Positions 1,093-20,961 of a DNA stretch of 42,460 nucleotides are shown piece by piece. The stretch spans positions 1 to 42,460 of the forward strand of contig JAAWTG010000021.1 of the NCBI GenBank assembly GCA_022801925.1, read 5' to 3'. Below the pieces are notes generated by a model. That model was not told the DNA's origin. It worked only from the letters and a program-made list of their open reading frames with translations, and ran no database searches. The position numbers were made by a program, and so were the translations under genes. The DNA is from Clostridia bacterium. GTDB lineage: Bacteria > Bacillota > Clostridia > RUG12999. How positions within the stretch are numbered: the first letter of the stretch is position 1; every line of letters starts with the position of its first letter.

Positions 1093-1127
1093 AAAACCGC
1101 CTGAAACGTACATTTCAAGCGGTTTTT
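1093..1127 (-). terminator. intrinsic terminator of the tRNA-Lys transcript
   Basis: On the minus strand, AAACCGC pairs with GCGGTTTT and TGAAA/TTTCA extends the stem, followed by TTTTGTTTTTT. It sits immediately after the CCA end of the tRNA-Lys fragment, where the host tRNA transcript would stop. This supports the leftward orientation of the tRNA and places the host side of the junction on the left. Confidence 0.75.
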
Positions 1128-1130
1128 GAG

Positions 1131-1175
1131 TGGTGCGCCATTAGGGGGTCGAACCCTAGACACCCTGATTAAGAG
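1131..1175 (-). tRNA. 3' part of tRNA-Lys(CTT), truncated at the anticodon loop
   Basis: Read on the minus strand, the order is anticodon loop CTCTTAA, 3' anticodon stem TCAGG, variable loop GTGTC, T arm TAGGG-TTCGACC-CCCTA (five perfect pairs), acceptor ATGGCGC, discriminator A and encoded CCA. The matching 5' halves are absent: a CCTGA anticodon stem would be expected just upstream, but the sequence there is GAGGA, and no GCGCCAT acceptor strand follows within tRNA distance. The fragment is therefore not a functional tRNA. It is the duplicated 3' end left behind when a phage integrates into a tRNA gene. Confidence 0.85.
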
Positions 1176-1177
1176 TC
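1131..1177. other. attL: attL, left prophage-host junction
   Basis: The att core is the tRNA-Lys 3' segment from the anticodon loop to CCA. Host sequence and the tRNA terminator lie to its left and the integrase gene 125 bp to its right, the usual geometry for a tyrosine-recombinase prophage. The exact crossover cannot be fixed without the right junction, and no second copy of the segment occurs in the window. Confidence 0.8.
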
Positions 1178-1184
1178 CTCTTTT

Positions 1185-1305
1185 GTACGGTATTTTAAAT
1201 CTGTATATAGCTGTAAAATAGCGTAAATAAAGACTTTTTCGATTGTGCATGATAATTCGTGTATATATAAAATCGTGACAAACTACCGTACTATTACCGT
1301 ACTAT
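1185..1305. repeat. putative integrase arm-type sites
   Basis: An 11-bp word, TACCGTACTAT, is repeated twice head to tail at 1284-1294 and 1295-1305. Its core TACCGTAC occurs inverted (GTACGGTA) at 1185-1192. These copies lie between the att core and the integrase stop, and the last overlaps the stop codon. Arm-type binding sites of lambda-like integrases are typically short repeats at this place, so this is a reasonable inference, but no binding motif is known for this integrase. Confidence 0.5.
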
Positions 1306-2441
1306 TCTAATAGAGATACGGTTTCACGTTTTAGATTAGAAGAGACATGACTATAGATGTCTAATGTAATTTGTATAGATTTATGTCCCAGTAGTTCAGA
1401 CACCGTTTTTATATCCGCACCTTTTTCGAGCAATCTCGTGGCAAAACTATGTCGCATGGAATGTACGGTTAAATGTGTAGTTATATTTGATTTTTTCAGT
1501 AGGCTATTAAAGGCACGATATATATTTCGTTTGGACAATGGCGTTCCAGCGGTTGAATAAAAAACAAAAGGTGAATTTTTTTTGTTGTTTAATTTCTGTA
1601 CACTAACGCACTGTATAGCCTTTGCAGTAAGCGGAATTTCTCTTTTTCCACTGTCGGTTTTTGTGGTGTTTATAATAGTCTTGCTTTTTCGCTCCGGATT
1701 GTCATAATCATTTACAACAGATATGCTTTTATTGATATTTACTGTTTTGTTTTCAAAGTCCACATCACTCCACGTTAAAGCGAGCATTTCGCCTAAACGC
1801 ATACCAGTATTAAAAGCAAATACGAATAAATTTTCAAATGTAGTTTCACTATTGCAGTTTGATAAAAACTGATTCTGCTCCTCTTTGGTGAAAGCCAACG
1901 ATTCGCGCGGTGCTTTTTTAGGAACCTGAACGCCGTCACACGGATTTTGATACAAGATATTAGCTGAAACGGCTTGTTTACAAGCTTGAGATAAAGTTAT
2001 GAATACCTTTTTAACTGATGATTGACTTAGCCCCTCTTTGGCATTCAGCCCCTTTTCAGAAATATCATTTATGAATTTTTGAATGATAATAGGATTTAAT
2101 TTATCAAGTTTATAATGCCCTATTTTGGGGACTATATAGCGGTCTATGCTGCCCTTGTACATATCATATGTGGTCGGCTTGATGGAATTTCTTTTATATG
2201 TGTCAAGCCAAAACGAAACCCATTCGCCCACTGTATAGTCGGAAGGATTGGTTAACAAATGGCAGTCGTTCTTATATTTCAAGTCATTGATTTTCTTTTG
2301 AAGCTTGTCTTTGTCCATGCTAGATACGGTTTTTTTGATACGTTTTTTATTTTCATCATAGCCTATTGTGATCTCACATACCCAAAGACCATTTTTTCGC
2401 TGATAGATTGTTCCTTCTCCGTTCATTCTGCGCTTAGCCAT
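1302..2441 (-). CDS. int: tyrosine recombinase, phage integrase
   Basis: This 379-residue site-specific recombinase integrates the phage into tRNA-Lys. The N-terminal AP2-like arm-binding region (about 8-60) is followed by a SAM-like core-binding domain (about 70-170) and the catalytic domain. Arg215 (NTGMRLGE), Lys261 (TKTDSGKR), His327 and Arg330 (HSMRH), His353 (LGHKS) and the Tyr363 nucleophile (DIYSH) complete the active site. The start MAKRRMNGEG is chosen because AAGGAG lies just upstream; the open frame extends 28 codons further but without a ribosome site. It is transcribed toward attL, adjacent to it, as in most Bacillota prophages. Confidence 0.95.
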   Translation of the reverse strand: MAKRRMNGEGTIYQRKNGLWVCEITIGYDENKKRIKKTVSSMDKDKLQKKINDLKYKNDCHLLTNPSDYTVGEWVSFWLDTYKRNSIKPTTYDMYKGSIDRYIVPKIGHYKLDKLNPIIIQKFINDISEKGLNAKEGLSQSSVKKVFITLSQACKQAVSANILYQNPCDGVQVPKKAPRESLAFTKEEQNQFLSNCNSETTFENLFVFAFNTGMRLGEMLALTWSDVDFENKTVNINKSISVVNDYDNPERKSKTIINTTKTDSGKREIPLTAKAIQCVSVQKLNNKKNSPFVFYSTAGTPLSKRNIYRAFNSLLKKSNITTHLTVHSMRHSFATRLLEKGADIKTVSELLGHKSIQITLDIYSHVSSNLKRETVSLLE

Positions 2442-2628: not shown

Positions 2629-3804
2629 TTAACCACCGTTACGAGTACAATGTTTACATTTCGGTAAGTTTGCTACCTCCGAAATATCGTATACTTTAAC
2701 ATTTGCATTATTAACAATGCTTTGGCAGTTACGTCTGGTGTGGTAGACGGATCCGCTAGGTGCGACCCATACTATTTGACCTTGCGGAACAACCGCTTTT
2801 GCTGCTGGTTGCTCTGTAGGTGCCTGTGTTGGCTGCGGTGTTGCAGGTGGTTGATACGGCGTAGCTGCTGGTTGCTGTTGTACCTGATTAGTACCGTCAC
2901 TGCTGCCGGAACCGCCGGAGTAACTTCCGCTTGAATTACCGCCGCTATTGCTATTTCCCGAACCACTACTGTTGCTTCCTGAGTTCGGCGGCGTAGTCGC
3001 TTGCGGAACTTGCGGATTTTCCGCTGCGCCTTCCGTTGGATTTTCTGTCTGTTCTGCCGGTTGCGGTGATTCTGTTATGCTTGCCGGTACAATATCTCCG
3101 TGTGGTATCATATATCCTGCAAGGAGAGAGCCACACATACAGATAGCGATTAGTCCAGTTGTAATATATGTCCTTGGTTTATGTAGATGTTTTGTAATTC
3201 CGTTAAACCTCTTTTGCACCTTATATTTTCGGATAAATGATGAAAATTGTTCAATGATTTTCTTTTCTTCGTCCACGGTAATTGTATCGGAATTTCCATT
3301 GATTTTCTCTGAAATAATATTAGCGTCCATACGGCTTAGATACGTAAGTTTCTCAATCTCGCTTGCCGCTGTTATGCCACACTTCTTTAAAATCAATGGT
3401 TGCGATAGCAAATATAGCATAAATTCATCAGCTTCGGTCTCTTGCCTTGCTGTTAATACTGGGTCTTTTGATTGTCCAAATACCTTATAACATGTATGTT
3501 TTAATGCTACATGCCCAATTTCGTGAGCTATAGTGCGAACTTGATCTTCATAGGATAGATTACTATTGTAAAAGATGTATATTTCACCAAAATCACTTCT
3601 ACACGCGAATCCGTTCGCTTGGTCAACCATGTATTCCAGCTTACATTCTTGTATTAGATTTGCTCCTTCCTGATAAGTATTAATTTCCCACCCCCTCATA
3701 CTACATATTTCATAGAGCGTATCGCGTTCGATTGGAAGTTCCGTGATTCTCTGTTTTTTACTGGTCATAAATTTGTACACCAGCATTTCAACGTTTCTCC
3801 CCAT
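2629..3804 (-). CDS. membrane-anchored ImmA/IrrE-type metallopeptidase with external C-terminal domain
   Basis: The N-terminal 200 residues match phage ImmA/IrrE zinc peptidases, which cleave XRE repressors to induce the prophage: HEIGH at 94-98 supplies two zinc ligands and the general base, and Glu124 in the ETEADEF segment is the likely third ligand. Unlike ordinary ImmA (about 130-180 residues), this 391-residue protein continues into one hydrophobic segment (about 213-232). A low-complexity Pro/Ser/Gly/Gln linker (about 240-340) follows, then a short Cys/His domain (about 340-391) with YHTRRNC and CKHC. The topology implies a cytoplasmic protease tied to an extracellular sensor-like module. 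GGGGAGG precedes the ATG. The gene lies directly downstream of the XRE repressor gene, its presumed substrate; that link is inferred. Confidence 0.8.
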   Translation of the reverse strand: MGRNVEMLVYKFMTSKKQRITELPIERDTLYEICSMRGWEINTYQEGANLIQECKLEYMVDQANGFACRSDFGEIYIFYNSNLSYEDQVRTIAHEIGHVALKHTCYKVFGQSKDPVLTARQETEADEFMLYLLSQPLILKKCGITAASEIEKLTYLSRMDANIISEKINGNSDTITVDEEKKIIEQFSSFIRKYKVQKRFNGITKHLHKPRTYITTGLIAICMCGSLLAGYMIPHGDIVPASITESPQPAEQTENPTEGAAENPQVPQATTPPNSGSNSSGSGNSNSGGNSSGSYSGGSGSSDGTNQVQQQPAATPYQPPATPQPTQAPTEQPAAKAVVPQGQIVWVAPSGSVYHTRRNCQSIVNNANVKVYDISEVANLPKCKHCTRNGG

Positions 3805-3925: not shown

Positions 3926-4324
3926 TTAGTCCTCCAAATGTTTCAGCATTTGTCGGTGCAATACTTTTTTTAATTCCATTAAATCGTCAAATTCTTTTTT
4001 GGGCATTTCAATAGTTTCGTTTTCTCCGCTAGACCCTTGCACGCTAATAAGGACAGTGTCAGGATTTTGTGGTTTACGTAACAGTTCCTTTGCCCGTTCC
4101 CGTGTAATATTCATGTTTGGCATAGGGTGCGGGTCGTCTGTACGACCTAATAAGTAATCTGTCGTTACGTTAAAAATATCTGAACATTTTAAAAGACTAG
4201 TATTATCAATTTCATATTTTTCATTTTCCCATCCAGATAATGTAGCTTGTGTTATCCCTAGCTGTTCTGCCAATTGTTGTTGGCTTAATCCATCTTTTTT
4301 GCGTAGTTCTTTTAGTCGTAACAT
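3926..4324 (-). CDS. XRE-family repressor, CI-like
   Basis: This 132-residue protein has an N-terminal helix-turn-helix (about 5-60; LSQQQLAEQLGITQATLSGWE) typical of phage lysogeny repressors, then LLGRTDDP and a short acidic C-terminal part. It lacks a LexA-type peptidase domain, so it cannot cleave itself. That fits control by the neighbouring ImmA-type protease. A TTG directly precedes the ATG, and ATG is taken as the start. Transcription is leftward from the promoter at 4357-4385, back to back with the Cro-like gene. The acidic tail could be the cleavage or dimerisation part. Confidence 0.85.
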   Translation of the reverse strand: MLRLKELRKKDGLSQQQLAEQLGITQATLSGWENEKYEIDNTSLLKCSDIFNVTTDYLLGRTDDPHPMPNMNITRERAKELLRKPQNPDTVLISVQGSSGENETIEMPKKEFDDLMELKKVLHRQMLKHLED

Positions 4325-4356
4325 CAAATCACCATCTTTTTATAAGTTGTATTTAT

Positions 4357-4385
4357 ATTATAAGACATATTTATATTTTTGTAAA
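4357..4385 (-). promoter_or_regulatory. leftward repressor promoter
   Basis: On the minus strand, TTTACA (4380-4385) and TATAAT (4357-4362) are 17 bp apart, a near-consensus sigma-70/SigA promoter about 33 bp before the repressor start. The -10 box lies inside the 13-mer TATAATATAAATA, which also covers the -10 of the opposing promoter. Confidence 0.8.
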
Positions 4386-4433: not shown

Positions 4434-4462
4434 TTGACAATAATATAAAGTTAGTTTATAAT
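4434..4462 (+). promoter_or_regulatory. rightward early promoter
   Basis: TTGACA (4434-4439) and TATAAT (4457-4462) have a 17-bp spacer and match the SigA consensus perfectly. The promoter lies 30 bp upstream of the Cro-like start and should drive the whole early operon. Inverted arms ATAAAGT and ACTTTAT flank the -10 region and may be operator half-sites. Confidence 0.9.
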
Positions 4463-4492
4463 ATAAATATACTTTATAAAGGAGATGCAAAA

Positions 4493-4687
4493 ATGAATGG
4501 TATAGAATTTAGACGAAAAAAAGAAAACATAACACAATCTCAATTAGCAGAGAGACTTGGTGTATCACAAGCAAATATTTCTCAATGGGAAAACGGTGAA
4601 GCGTTTCCACGTGCAGACAAACTTCCTGCTTTAGCTGAAGCATTAAATTGTACAATAGATGATTTGTTTGAAAATAATTCAGCCTAA
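4493..4687 (+). CDS. Cro-like XRE regulator
   Basis: This 64-residue protein is almost entirely one helix-turn-helix domain (ITQSQLAERLGVSQANISQWE) with the ending CTIDDLFE usual in small phage XRE proteins. AAGGAG lies 8 bp before the ATG. As the first gene of the rightward operon, opposite the repressor and sharing its operator region, it fits the Cro role of shutting off repressor synthesis. The function is inferred from position and size. Confidence 0.85.
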   Translation: MNGIEFRRKKENITQSQLAERLGVSQANISQWENGEAFPRADKLPALAEALNCTIDDLFENNSA

Positions 4688-5067: not shown

Positions 5068-5187
5068 ATGAACAAACTTAAAGAACTCACTATGCAGCTA
5101 ATCGCAGCGCAGGAGCGTGGGGATAGGCGGGAATGGAAGAAACTAGCTGGACAGATTGCGGAGATGGAAGGAGAGAGTGACAAATGA
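5068..5187 (+). CDS. small hypothetical phage protein
   Basis: This 39-residue reading frame (MNKLKELTMQ... to SDK) follows GAAAGGAG and ends in an ATGA overlap with the next gene, so translational coupling is likely. It is helical and charged, with no recognisable domain. Too short to classify; the start and overlap support it being real. Confidence 0.55.
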   Translation: MNKLKELTMQLIAAQERGDRREWKKLAGQIAEMEGESDK

Positions 5188-5609
5188 TAACCATAAAAAA
5201 GCCGGAGGATATGGAAAAATATTATGACAAGGAAACAAATACATATCGGTTTGTGGATAAAAATGGATTTCGTGAGGATGTAACGATAAAGTTCAATATT
5301 AATATTGATAGTAATATCTATGCGTGGAACATTAACGCGTGGAACATTAACGCGTGGAACATTAACGCGGGGAACATTAACGCGTGGAACATTAACGCGG
5401 TGGACATTAACGCGTGGAACATTAACGCGGGGGACATTACCGCAGGGGACATTAACGCGGGGGACATTAACGCAGACCATATATTATATTATGCCGTATG
5501 CATAGCGTATGAGTCTTTTAAATGTAAGTCAGTCAAAGGTCGCCGCATAAACGCCGTGCATATGTGTCTGGACGGAGATATTGAGTATAAAGGAGGAGAC
5601 GGGGAATGA
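5184..5609 (+). CDS. tandem 5-residue repeat protein
   Basis: This 141-residue protein has a charged N-terminal part (1-45), ten 5-residue repeats (about 47-96) of the type A-W/G-N/D-I-N, and a C-terminal domain with YYAVC, a KGRR motif and CLDG. The regular Ile every five residues with Asn/Asp before it suggests a pentapeptide-like right-handed beta-helix, although the small residue is not in the classical position. Relatives with different repeat numbers are common in clostridial prophages as far as I recall; no function is established. It overlaps both neighbours by ATGA-type junctions. Confidence 0.7.
   Translation: MITIKKPEDMEKYYDKETNTYRFVDKNGFREDVTIKFNINIDSNIYAWNINAWNINAWNINAGNINAWNINAVDINAWNINAGDITAGDINAGDINADHILYYAVCIAYESFKCKSVKGRRINAVHMCLDGDIEYKGGDGE
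5322..5471 (+). repeat. ten 15-bp tandem repeats in coding sequence
   Basis: The unit GCGTGGAACATTAAC is repeated ten times with a few substitutions (GGG for TGG, GAC for AAC). All units are multiples of three bases, so gain or loss of units keeps the frame and only changes protein length. Confidence 0.9.
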
Positions 5610-20118: not shown

Positions 20119-20961
20119 ATGCGTGAAATGGTATTGGTAAATAGGCAATCAATAGACGTTAAAGAGTACGAAGGAAAAAGAGTGGTAACCTTCAAAGATG
20201 TTGACAATGTACATGATAGACCAACAGGAACTACAAGAAAGGCGTTTCACCGAAATAAAAACCGCTTTTTATGCGGCGTTGATTACTTCGTCCTTCAAAG
20301 GGACGAAGCCCAACAATATGGCTATACTGCTCCTAATGGTCTTATATTTTTAACGGAAAGCGGCTATCTAATGATTGCAAAAGTATTTGATGATAGTCTT
20401 GCATGGAATGTTCAGCGCGAACTTGTAAATAATTATTTCAATCAAGTGCAGAGCGTATCCCAGCCGACCACCAATTACACCTATAACAACCGTCCGGTCG
20501 TAACGATACGGCAGATAGCGGAGCATTTGAGAATCAGCGTACAGACCACACAAAACCGTTTTAGACTGCATAAAAATGAATTTACCTACGGTACAGAATA
20601 TGAAATCCTATACGGCTGCAACATGGAGCAATTCAAGGCGCAAAACGCAGGATTCAGCGGTATCAGTAAATTAACGGTTTTCACGCCCAAAGGAGCGCGG
20701 CGAATGCTGGAACTTTGCAAACAGTGTCAACAGGTTAAAGCGATTCCGGCAGCAGACAAAAATGCGAAAGACAGCGCGAAAAAGCAGGAATTAACAGACG
20801 TAATGAATCGGCGTTTAATTGCAATTCATACTTTGGTGGATATGGTAACACATTCTAAGAATCCACAAGATACATATTGCTTTGCTAAAACTTTGGATAT
20901 GCTGATTCTTTCAATGTATGCAAAAACTCTTAAATTAGAGGAAATATGTCAAGCGAAGTAA
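20119..20961 (+). CDS. ORF6N-domain antirepressor
   Basis: This 280-residue protein has an N-terminal ORF6N domain (about 5-110: VNRQSIDVKEYEGKRVVTFKDVD, FHRNKNRFLCGVDYFVLQ, LIFLTESGYLMIAKVFDD). A second similar block (about 125-200: YNNRPVVTIRQIAEHL, NRFRLHKNEFTYGTEYEIL, TVFTPKGARRMLELC) suggests an internal duplication. ORF6N/KilA-N proteins act as antirepressors that release prophages. GGAGGAATG precedes the ATG. It lies within the late region, controlled locally by the RHH repressor. Confidence 0.75.
   Translation: MREMVLVNRQSIDVKEYEGKRVVTFKDVDNVHDRPTGTTRKAFHRNKNRFLCGVDYFVLQRDEAQQYGYTAPNGLIFLTESGYLMIAKVFDDSLAWNVQRELVNNYFNQVQSVSQPTTNYTYNNRPVVTIRQIAEHLRISVQTTQNRFRLHKNEFTYGTEYEILYGCNMEQFKAQNAGFSGISKLTVFTPKGARRMLELCKQCQQVKAIPAADKNAKDSAKKQELTDVMNRRLIAIHTLVDMVTHSKNPQDTYCFAKTLDMLILSMYAKTLKLEEICQAK

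Follow-up and report, generated by a model that had tools for sequence, protein, structure and literature searches.

One protein encoded in the window, the whole stretch of 42,460 nucleotides of a Clostridia bacterium contig that was analysed here, is confirmed as an M78 (ImmA/IrrE) protease followed by one membrane helix, a disordered spacer and a C-terminal Cys/His domain, and its gene adjoins a repressor gene in a prophage. The protease is predicted to lie inside the cell and the C-terminal domain outside. The same order of parts was found in at least 33 distinct M78 proteins, mostly from Clostridia, so that the window protein is not unique, and the fused membrane-spanning ImmA design is apparently both recurrent and undescribed. 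We put at about even the chance that the arrangement represents a membrane-spanning form of the ImmA/ImmR (IrrE/DdrO) module, like BlaR1/BlaI in its logic, that is triggered from outside.

Architecture of the protease

The reading frame of the protein begins at an ATG in the ORF list of the window (Table 1). Its first 200 residues are covered by a match to the Pfam M78 profile PF06114 (E 6.5e-7; 29.6 bits, with a curated cut-off of 22), and an M56 peptidase match was absent from the Pfam results up to E 1. The original prediction, made from the sequence by eye, had described an intact HEIGH site, a single transmembrane segment, a 100-residue low-complexity spacer and a small external Cys/His domain. 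The active site is indeed intact, with E122 and E124, downstream of the motif, invariant in an alignment with viral M78 proteins, and there is one hydrophobic stretch, at residues ~215–233. The spacer is present and disordered, but its length is ~109 residues. The small domain also held up, in that charge bias predicts it to be outside, and can now be specified as an Ada-like module with a His and three Cys (H-C-C-C).

In an AlphaFold2 model most of the protease part had a pLDDT above 90, helices spanned residues 188–207 and 210–228, residues 234–341 were structureless and the C-terminal domain was small (residues 344–387; pLDDT ~75–86); in the full-length alignment behind the model, just two further proteins had the complete architecture. 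When the modelled protease part was compared with PDB chains, PprI/IrrE occupied ranks 1–4 at a probability of 0.99, though with E values of 0.02–0.06.

Table 1. Positions of the protease gene, its parts and the lysogeny region in the window.
Feature	Position	Strand	Evidence or remark
62-nt attachment core, 3' part of tRNA-Lys(CTT)	1116..1177		identical to start of host contig C83
Tyrosine integrase	1302..2441	-	PF00589, E 1.2e-38
M78 protease with membrane helix and predicted outer domain, 391 aa	2629..3804	-	ORF, PF06114, AlphaFold2 model
Predicted outer Ada-like H-C-C-C domain, residues 342–391	2632..2781	-	invariant ligands, domain model, fold and profile matches
Low-complexity disordered spacer, residues 234–341	2782..3105	-	pLDDT mostly <50
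Single transmembrane helix, residues 215–233	3106..3162	-	hydropathy, charge bias; model helix 210–228
HEIGH zinc-protease motif, residues 94–98	3511..3525	-	H, E and H invariant in relatives
HTH (Xre) repressor, 133 aa, presumed substrate	3926..4327	-	PF01381, E 6.7e-17
Two operator-like sites TATAAR-N5-TTTATA	4341..4375		overlap leftward promoter
Leftward promoter-like site TTTACA-17-TATAAT	4357..4385	-	11/12
Rightward promoter-like site TTGACA-17-TATAAT	4434..4462	+	12/12
Two operator-like sites TATAAR-N5-TTTATA	4444..4478		overlap rightward promoter
Cro-like HTH gene, first of rightward transcript	4493..4687	+	PF01381, E 5e-17

The C-terminal domain is predicted to be outside the cell

The topology prediction that had been called for was run, and it placed the protease on the cytoplasmic side of the membrane and the C-terminus on the extracellular side. 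The 20 residues preceding the helix of the window protein include six K/R and no D/E, and the 20 that follow it include no K/R and three D/E. Among the 33 relatives, K+R was higher before the helix than after it in 31 and tied in two when 15 residues were counted on each side (means of 4.1 and 1.1 per 15 residues, respectively). The same C-terminal domain is also widespread on non-M78 proteins that start with a signal peptide, a lipobox or a membrane helix; such a segment lay within the first 60 residues in 46 of 52, a tally that covers proteins with some hydrophobic segment ahead of the domain and no others. The external position is thus predicted from two independent lines, the charge bias and the occurrence of the domain on exported proteins.

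The outer domain resembles the N-terminal zinc domain of Ada

The candidate ligands of the domain in the window protein are H355, C360, C383 and C386, in the pattern GxxYHx4C...CxxC. The Gly, the His and the three Cys are invariant in the aligned members, distant relatives included, and the set is therefore no chance motif. PF02805 (Ada zinc-binding) matched 7 of 17 relatives (best E 1.7e-5), with no match to the window's own domain. A model of the domain (pLDDT 80) had four E. coli Ada N-domain entries at ranks 1–4 of 350,542 chains, matches that are weak in absolute score (E 0.55–1.3), and the best structural alignment, to the Ada DNA complex 1u8b, reached a Z of 3.4. A sequence profile of the domain likewise placed four Ada chains first (E 0.025–0.07), with its PC-x2-C part aligned with Ada. 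The Ada N-domain is held by four Cys ligands, of which Cys38 is reactive. The invariant set here is one His and three Cys instead of four Cys, and the His seems to stand in place of Cys38, which makes a methyl acceptor unexpected. By these sequence and model comparisons, the outer domain is probably an H-C-C-C module of the Ada-like kind, its zinc binding being putative.

Other proteins that carry the domain were also compared. Among 57 non-M78 proteins the partner was a metallo-beta-lactamase in 12, an SNase in seven and a non-specific endonuclease in two, and the remaining partners include other outside domains. These partners suggested DNA binding; the mean net charge, however, is +1.2 for M78-linked domains and +5.2 for the other copies (P = 1e-8). 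DNA binding common to all copies is doubted, the M78-linked ones being far less basic. As a separate observation, the domain is common at the C-terminus of secreted proteins (L098–L112, L190–L227 and L242–L250), often joined there to ComEC-like metallo-beta-lactamases or SNase nucleases; Pfam has no dedicated family that describes it well.

The architecture is recurrent and may be inherited as a unit

Relatives were gathered with a five-relative profile over 391 genomes of the class, a further search of the phylum and other retrievals, which carried out the originally proposed search for the same domain order. Since the profile itself contained the outer domain, a control retrieval was made with PF06114 alone. 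It returned 66 HExxH ORFs, three of which, the window protein among them, have a helix after the active site; the outer domain was present in all three. The other 63 had neither helix nor outer domain, consistent with the premise that ImmA-like proteases are normally soluble. Three zinc-ribbon proteins without a helix in this control fitted just a looser motif. Among the proteins collected, 33 had both parts and none had the helix or the outer domain alone.

Both parts are kept across ~25% identity. The spacer is not conserved in length, ranging from 7 to 109 residues. Nearly all members group together in a tree of the protease part, and a constraint to one clade was not rejected (p-AU 0.74). 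Several independent fusions were considered, as L091 and L092 lie apart in the free tree, yet the single clade was not rejected. The coupling of helix and domain may therefore reflect common inheritance.

Single-protein scans of viral and genome contigs, and tblastn against phages, returned nothing; the relatives came from the whole-genome search. A plasmid collection yielded a Monoglobus pectinilyticus protein 77% identical to one relative (L188) and annotated as an ImmA/IrrE family metallo-endopeptidase. No NCBIfam model for the whole architecture was found, nor was a published description of the fused membrane-spanning form in the open-access literature, subscription papers being outside the search.

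Partner genes and genomic settings

The window represents a prophage whose integration site is tRNA-Lys: an intact tRNA-Lys(CTT) gene is present on the host contig whose start is identical to the attachment core, and the window also encodes portal, terminase and capsid genes. Repressor, protease and integrase genes follow one another in that order on one strand; the integrase starts at the ATG at 2441, with the open frame extending to 2525. Four TATAAR-N5-TTTATA sites lie between the repressor and the Cro-like gene and nowhere else in the window (six strand matches observed, 0.02 expected). From its sequence, this arrangement is a lysogeny operon with a predicted four-operator divergent switch. 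The repressor had been predicted to lack a self-cleaving domain, and in Pfam it matched HTH families alone. Three further genes of the prophage were noted: an ORF6N-domain protein (20119–20961, + strand; PF10543, E 2.6e-19), possibly a phage antirepressor and a second route of induction; a protein (5184–5609, + strand) in which a 10-residue unit (INAWNINAWN-like) recurs many times with little change, the DNA being repetitive as well; and a second, larger HTH protein of 242 aa at the right end of the contig (41661–42389, - strand), whose C-terminal part is unassigned.

At least 26 of the 33 members have an HTH gene directly upstream. In further cases it is obscured, by an overlap in L092, by one intervening gene in L072 and by contig ends in L006 and L115, and it is absent from that position in at least one member, L067, for which 13 kb of upstream sequence was available; phage-like structural genes adjoin L067. 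HTH_3 matches were obtained in 15 of 18 scanned partner proteins, and the self-cleaving S24 domain did not occur among the matches listed. An IAAYGG/VAAFGG-like segment in the C-terminal part of partners L015, L041, L055, L060, L063, L071, L230, L233 and others may be a region of protease recognition or cleavage. An A-[YFK]-G-like segment occurred in 7 of 25 partners as against 1.1 expected by shuffling, the pattern having been chosen post hoc; the claim of a cleavage motif was dropped, as the repressor of the window has just a loose equivalent, ISVQG.

The settings of the relatives are mixed. Two (L015 and L188, the latter the same protein as that of L072) are in IMG/VR, and L069, L071, L072 and L086 adjoin integrases or recombinases, whereas L068, L070, L084 and L085 lie among ordinary chromosomal genes. 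A chromosomal subgroup (L077, 4562–6348; L076, 2569–5106) adjoins genes for YukD-like, ThiF-like, zinc-ribbon and vWA proteins, a neighbourhood that would suit control of a type VII-like or ubiquitin-like cluster. L075 (6521–7507), which is closely related to the window protein, is encoded close to a Mu-F-like head protein showing a weak match of the copper amine oxidase N-terminal type. The host genome (G000) itself encodes a second membrane M78 protein with the outer domain on contig C57 (L097, 2720–3682). It has its own HTH gene, and two further genomes of the genus have near-identical copies (L066 and L114); crosstalk between this pair and the prophage pair is possible. Of the proposed role in prophage induction, the presence of a genuine lysogeny switch is supported. 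A phage-only function is rejected because many relatives are chromosomal and one is in the host genome; the design is therefore general, with phages among its users.

Discussion

How an outside signal could reach the repressor

The inducers known for ImmA-type switches act mostly within the cell (DNA damage, ssDNA, zinc release and Rap proteins). A membrane-spanning ImmA protein, if it works as proposed here, would open prophages to direct input from outside. An extracellular event that affects the zinc-type domain (ligand binding, a chemical change or shedding) would alter the clustering or the freedom of the tethered protease, which would then cut the HTH repressor; loss of the repressor would derepress the early rightward promoter. 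There are precedents. ImmA cleaves ImmR (PMC10233336). Cleavage of DdrO by PprI requires ssDNA, the activator, and a monomer-dimer exchange (PMC10904395), and the membrane protease BlaR1/MecR1 relays an outside signal (PMC7593790). A long disordered spacer, as modelled, speaks against a simple mechanical or allosteric transfer from outer domain to protease. Because its length varies from relative to relative, a signal would more probably be passed on by clustering or release than by rigid pushing, and the variation would fit clustering, release or mere tethering. We regard it as possible, at a little less than an even chance, that M78 single-pass receptor-proteases arose separately from BlaR1 and that temperate phages and chromosomal operons in Clostridia use them to cut a cytoplasmic repressor, in a single step, upon an outside signal.

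Mere tethering is the main competitor. Helix and outer domain would then just hold the protease at the membrane or wall, away from the repressor, and the trigger would be intracellular, for example ssDNA, zinc release or DNA damage, as in the soluble ImmA/IrrE proteins. The triggers known for the family are indeed intracellular (PMC10904395, PMC7907104, PMC10233336), the range of spacer lengths suits a loose tether, and cell-wall-binding repeats accompany the outer domain in two of the 57 non-M78 proteins. If tethering were all, however, the four candidate metal ligands would not have to be so strictly conserved and a helix by itself would suffice, yet every helix-bearing M78 protein collected has the domain. 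We consider this explanation rather unlikely. That the domain is specifically a sensor of metal or redox state, with zinc held by the H-C-C-C site and its loss or oxidation outside the cell as the signal, is improbable in our estimate: the candidate ligands are invariant, activation of IrrE through zinc and ROS or oxidation is established in Deinococcus (PMC7907104) and an oxygen alarm would presumably benefit anaerobic hosts, but secreted enzymes keep the same ligand set, where a structural role is simpler.

Sensing of DNA outside the cell by the Ada-like domain would accord with its nearest fold and with the nuclease or metallo-beta-lactamase partners of 21 of the 57 other proteins. The charge of the M78-linked copies argues the other way, although the window's own copy has a net charge of +4, and we hold such sensing to be more improbable still. 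Least probable of all is that the HTH-M78 pair is an addiction module and not a signalling switch. Such pairs are sometimes annotated as toxin-antitoxin systems, and a case has been proposed in Brucella (PMC10538038); here the pair belongs instead to an operon of the kind typical of lysogeny, complete with operators and an integrase, and a related immRA pair, when tested, gave contrary evidence (PMC10233336).

Were the outside-triggered reading correct, the task that BlaR1 performs, passing an outside signal to a repressor through proteolysis, would have been solved independently a second time, and viruses as well as bacterial gene clusters could be switched on by an outside agent. The design is directly testable, having 33 homologues spread over prophages and chromosomes and an outer domain with a clear set of four ligands.

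Comparison with known systems

The arrangement shares with ICEBs1 ImmA/ImmR and with ImmAR prophage switches the M78 protease, the HTH gene directly upstream and the regulation of a mobile element, and the adjoining repressor here likewise shows no self-cleaving domain. The ImmA proteins described are soluble, a property that is usual and not defining; the window protein adds one helix, with a predicted inside-to-outside topology, a long spacer and the outer H-C-C-C domain. PprI/IrrE with DdrO in Deinococcus has the same M78 fold and protease-repressor logic, but IrrE is cytosolic, has a GAF-like sensor domain and lacks a membrane part. CapP/CapH of CBASS also pairs an M78-type protease with an HTH repressor, and the window protein has a weak capP match (E 1.9e-7); no membrane helix or outer domain is known in CapP/CapH, and no CBASS genes were found in the window. 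The Ada N-terminal zinc domain works inside the cell, whereas its counterpart here is predicted to be outside.

Pneumococcal ImmAR prophages, compared here by description, offer the closest parallel among published ideas. Their lysogeny modules include szaL and spaL, separate genes for surface zinc proteins, and SzaL affects prophage induction, acting apart from ImmAR (PMC12637031). In both cases a zinc-type protein outside the cell is tied to an ImmAR lysogeny module, but in the window the outer domain is fused to the protease itself. The logic proposed here is that of BlaR1/BlaI and MecR1/MecI, which combine an inside membrane metalloprotease, an outside C-terminal sensor and a repressor as target. 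BlaR1 and MecR1 belong to the unrelated family M56 and have a beta-lactam-binding sensor, whereas the protein described here would reach the same arrangement from family M78.
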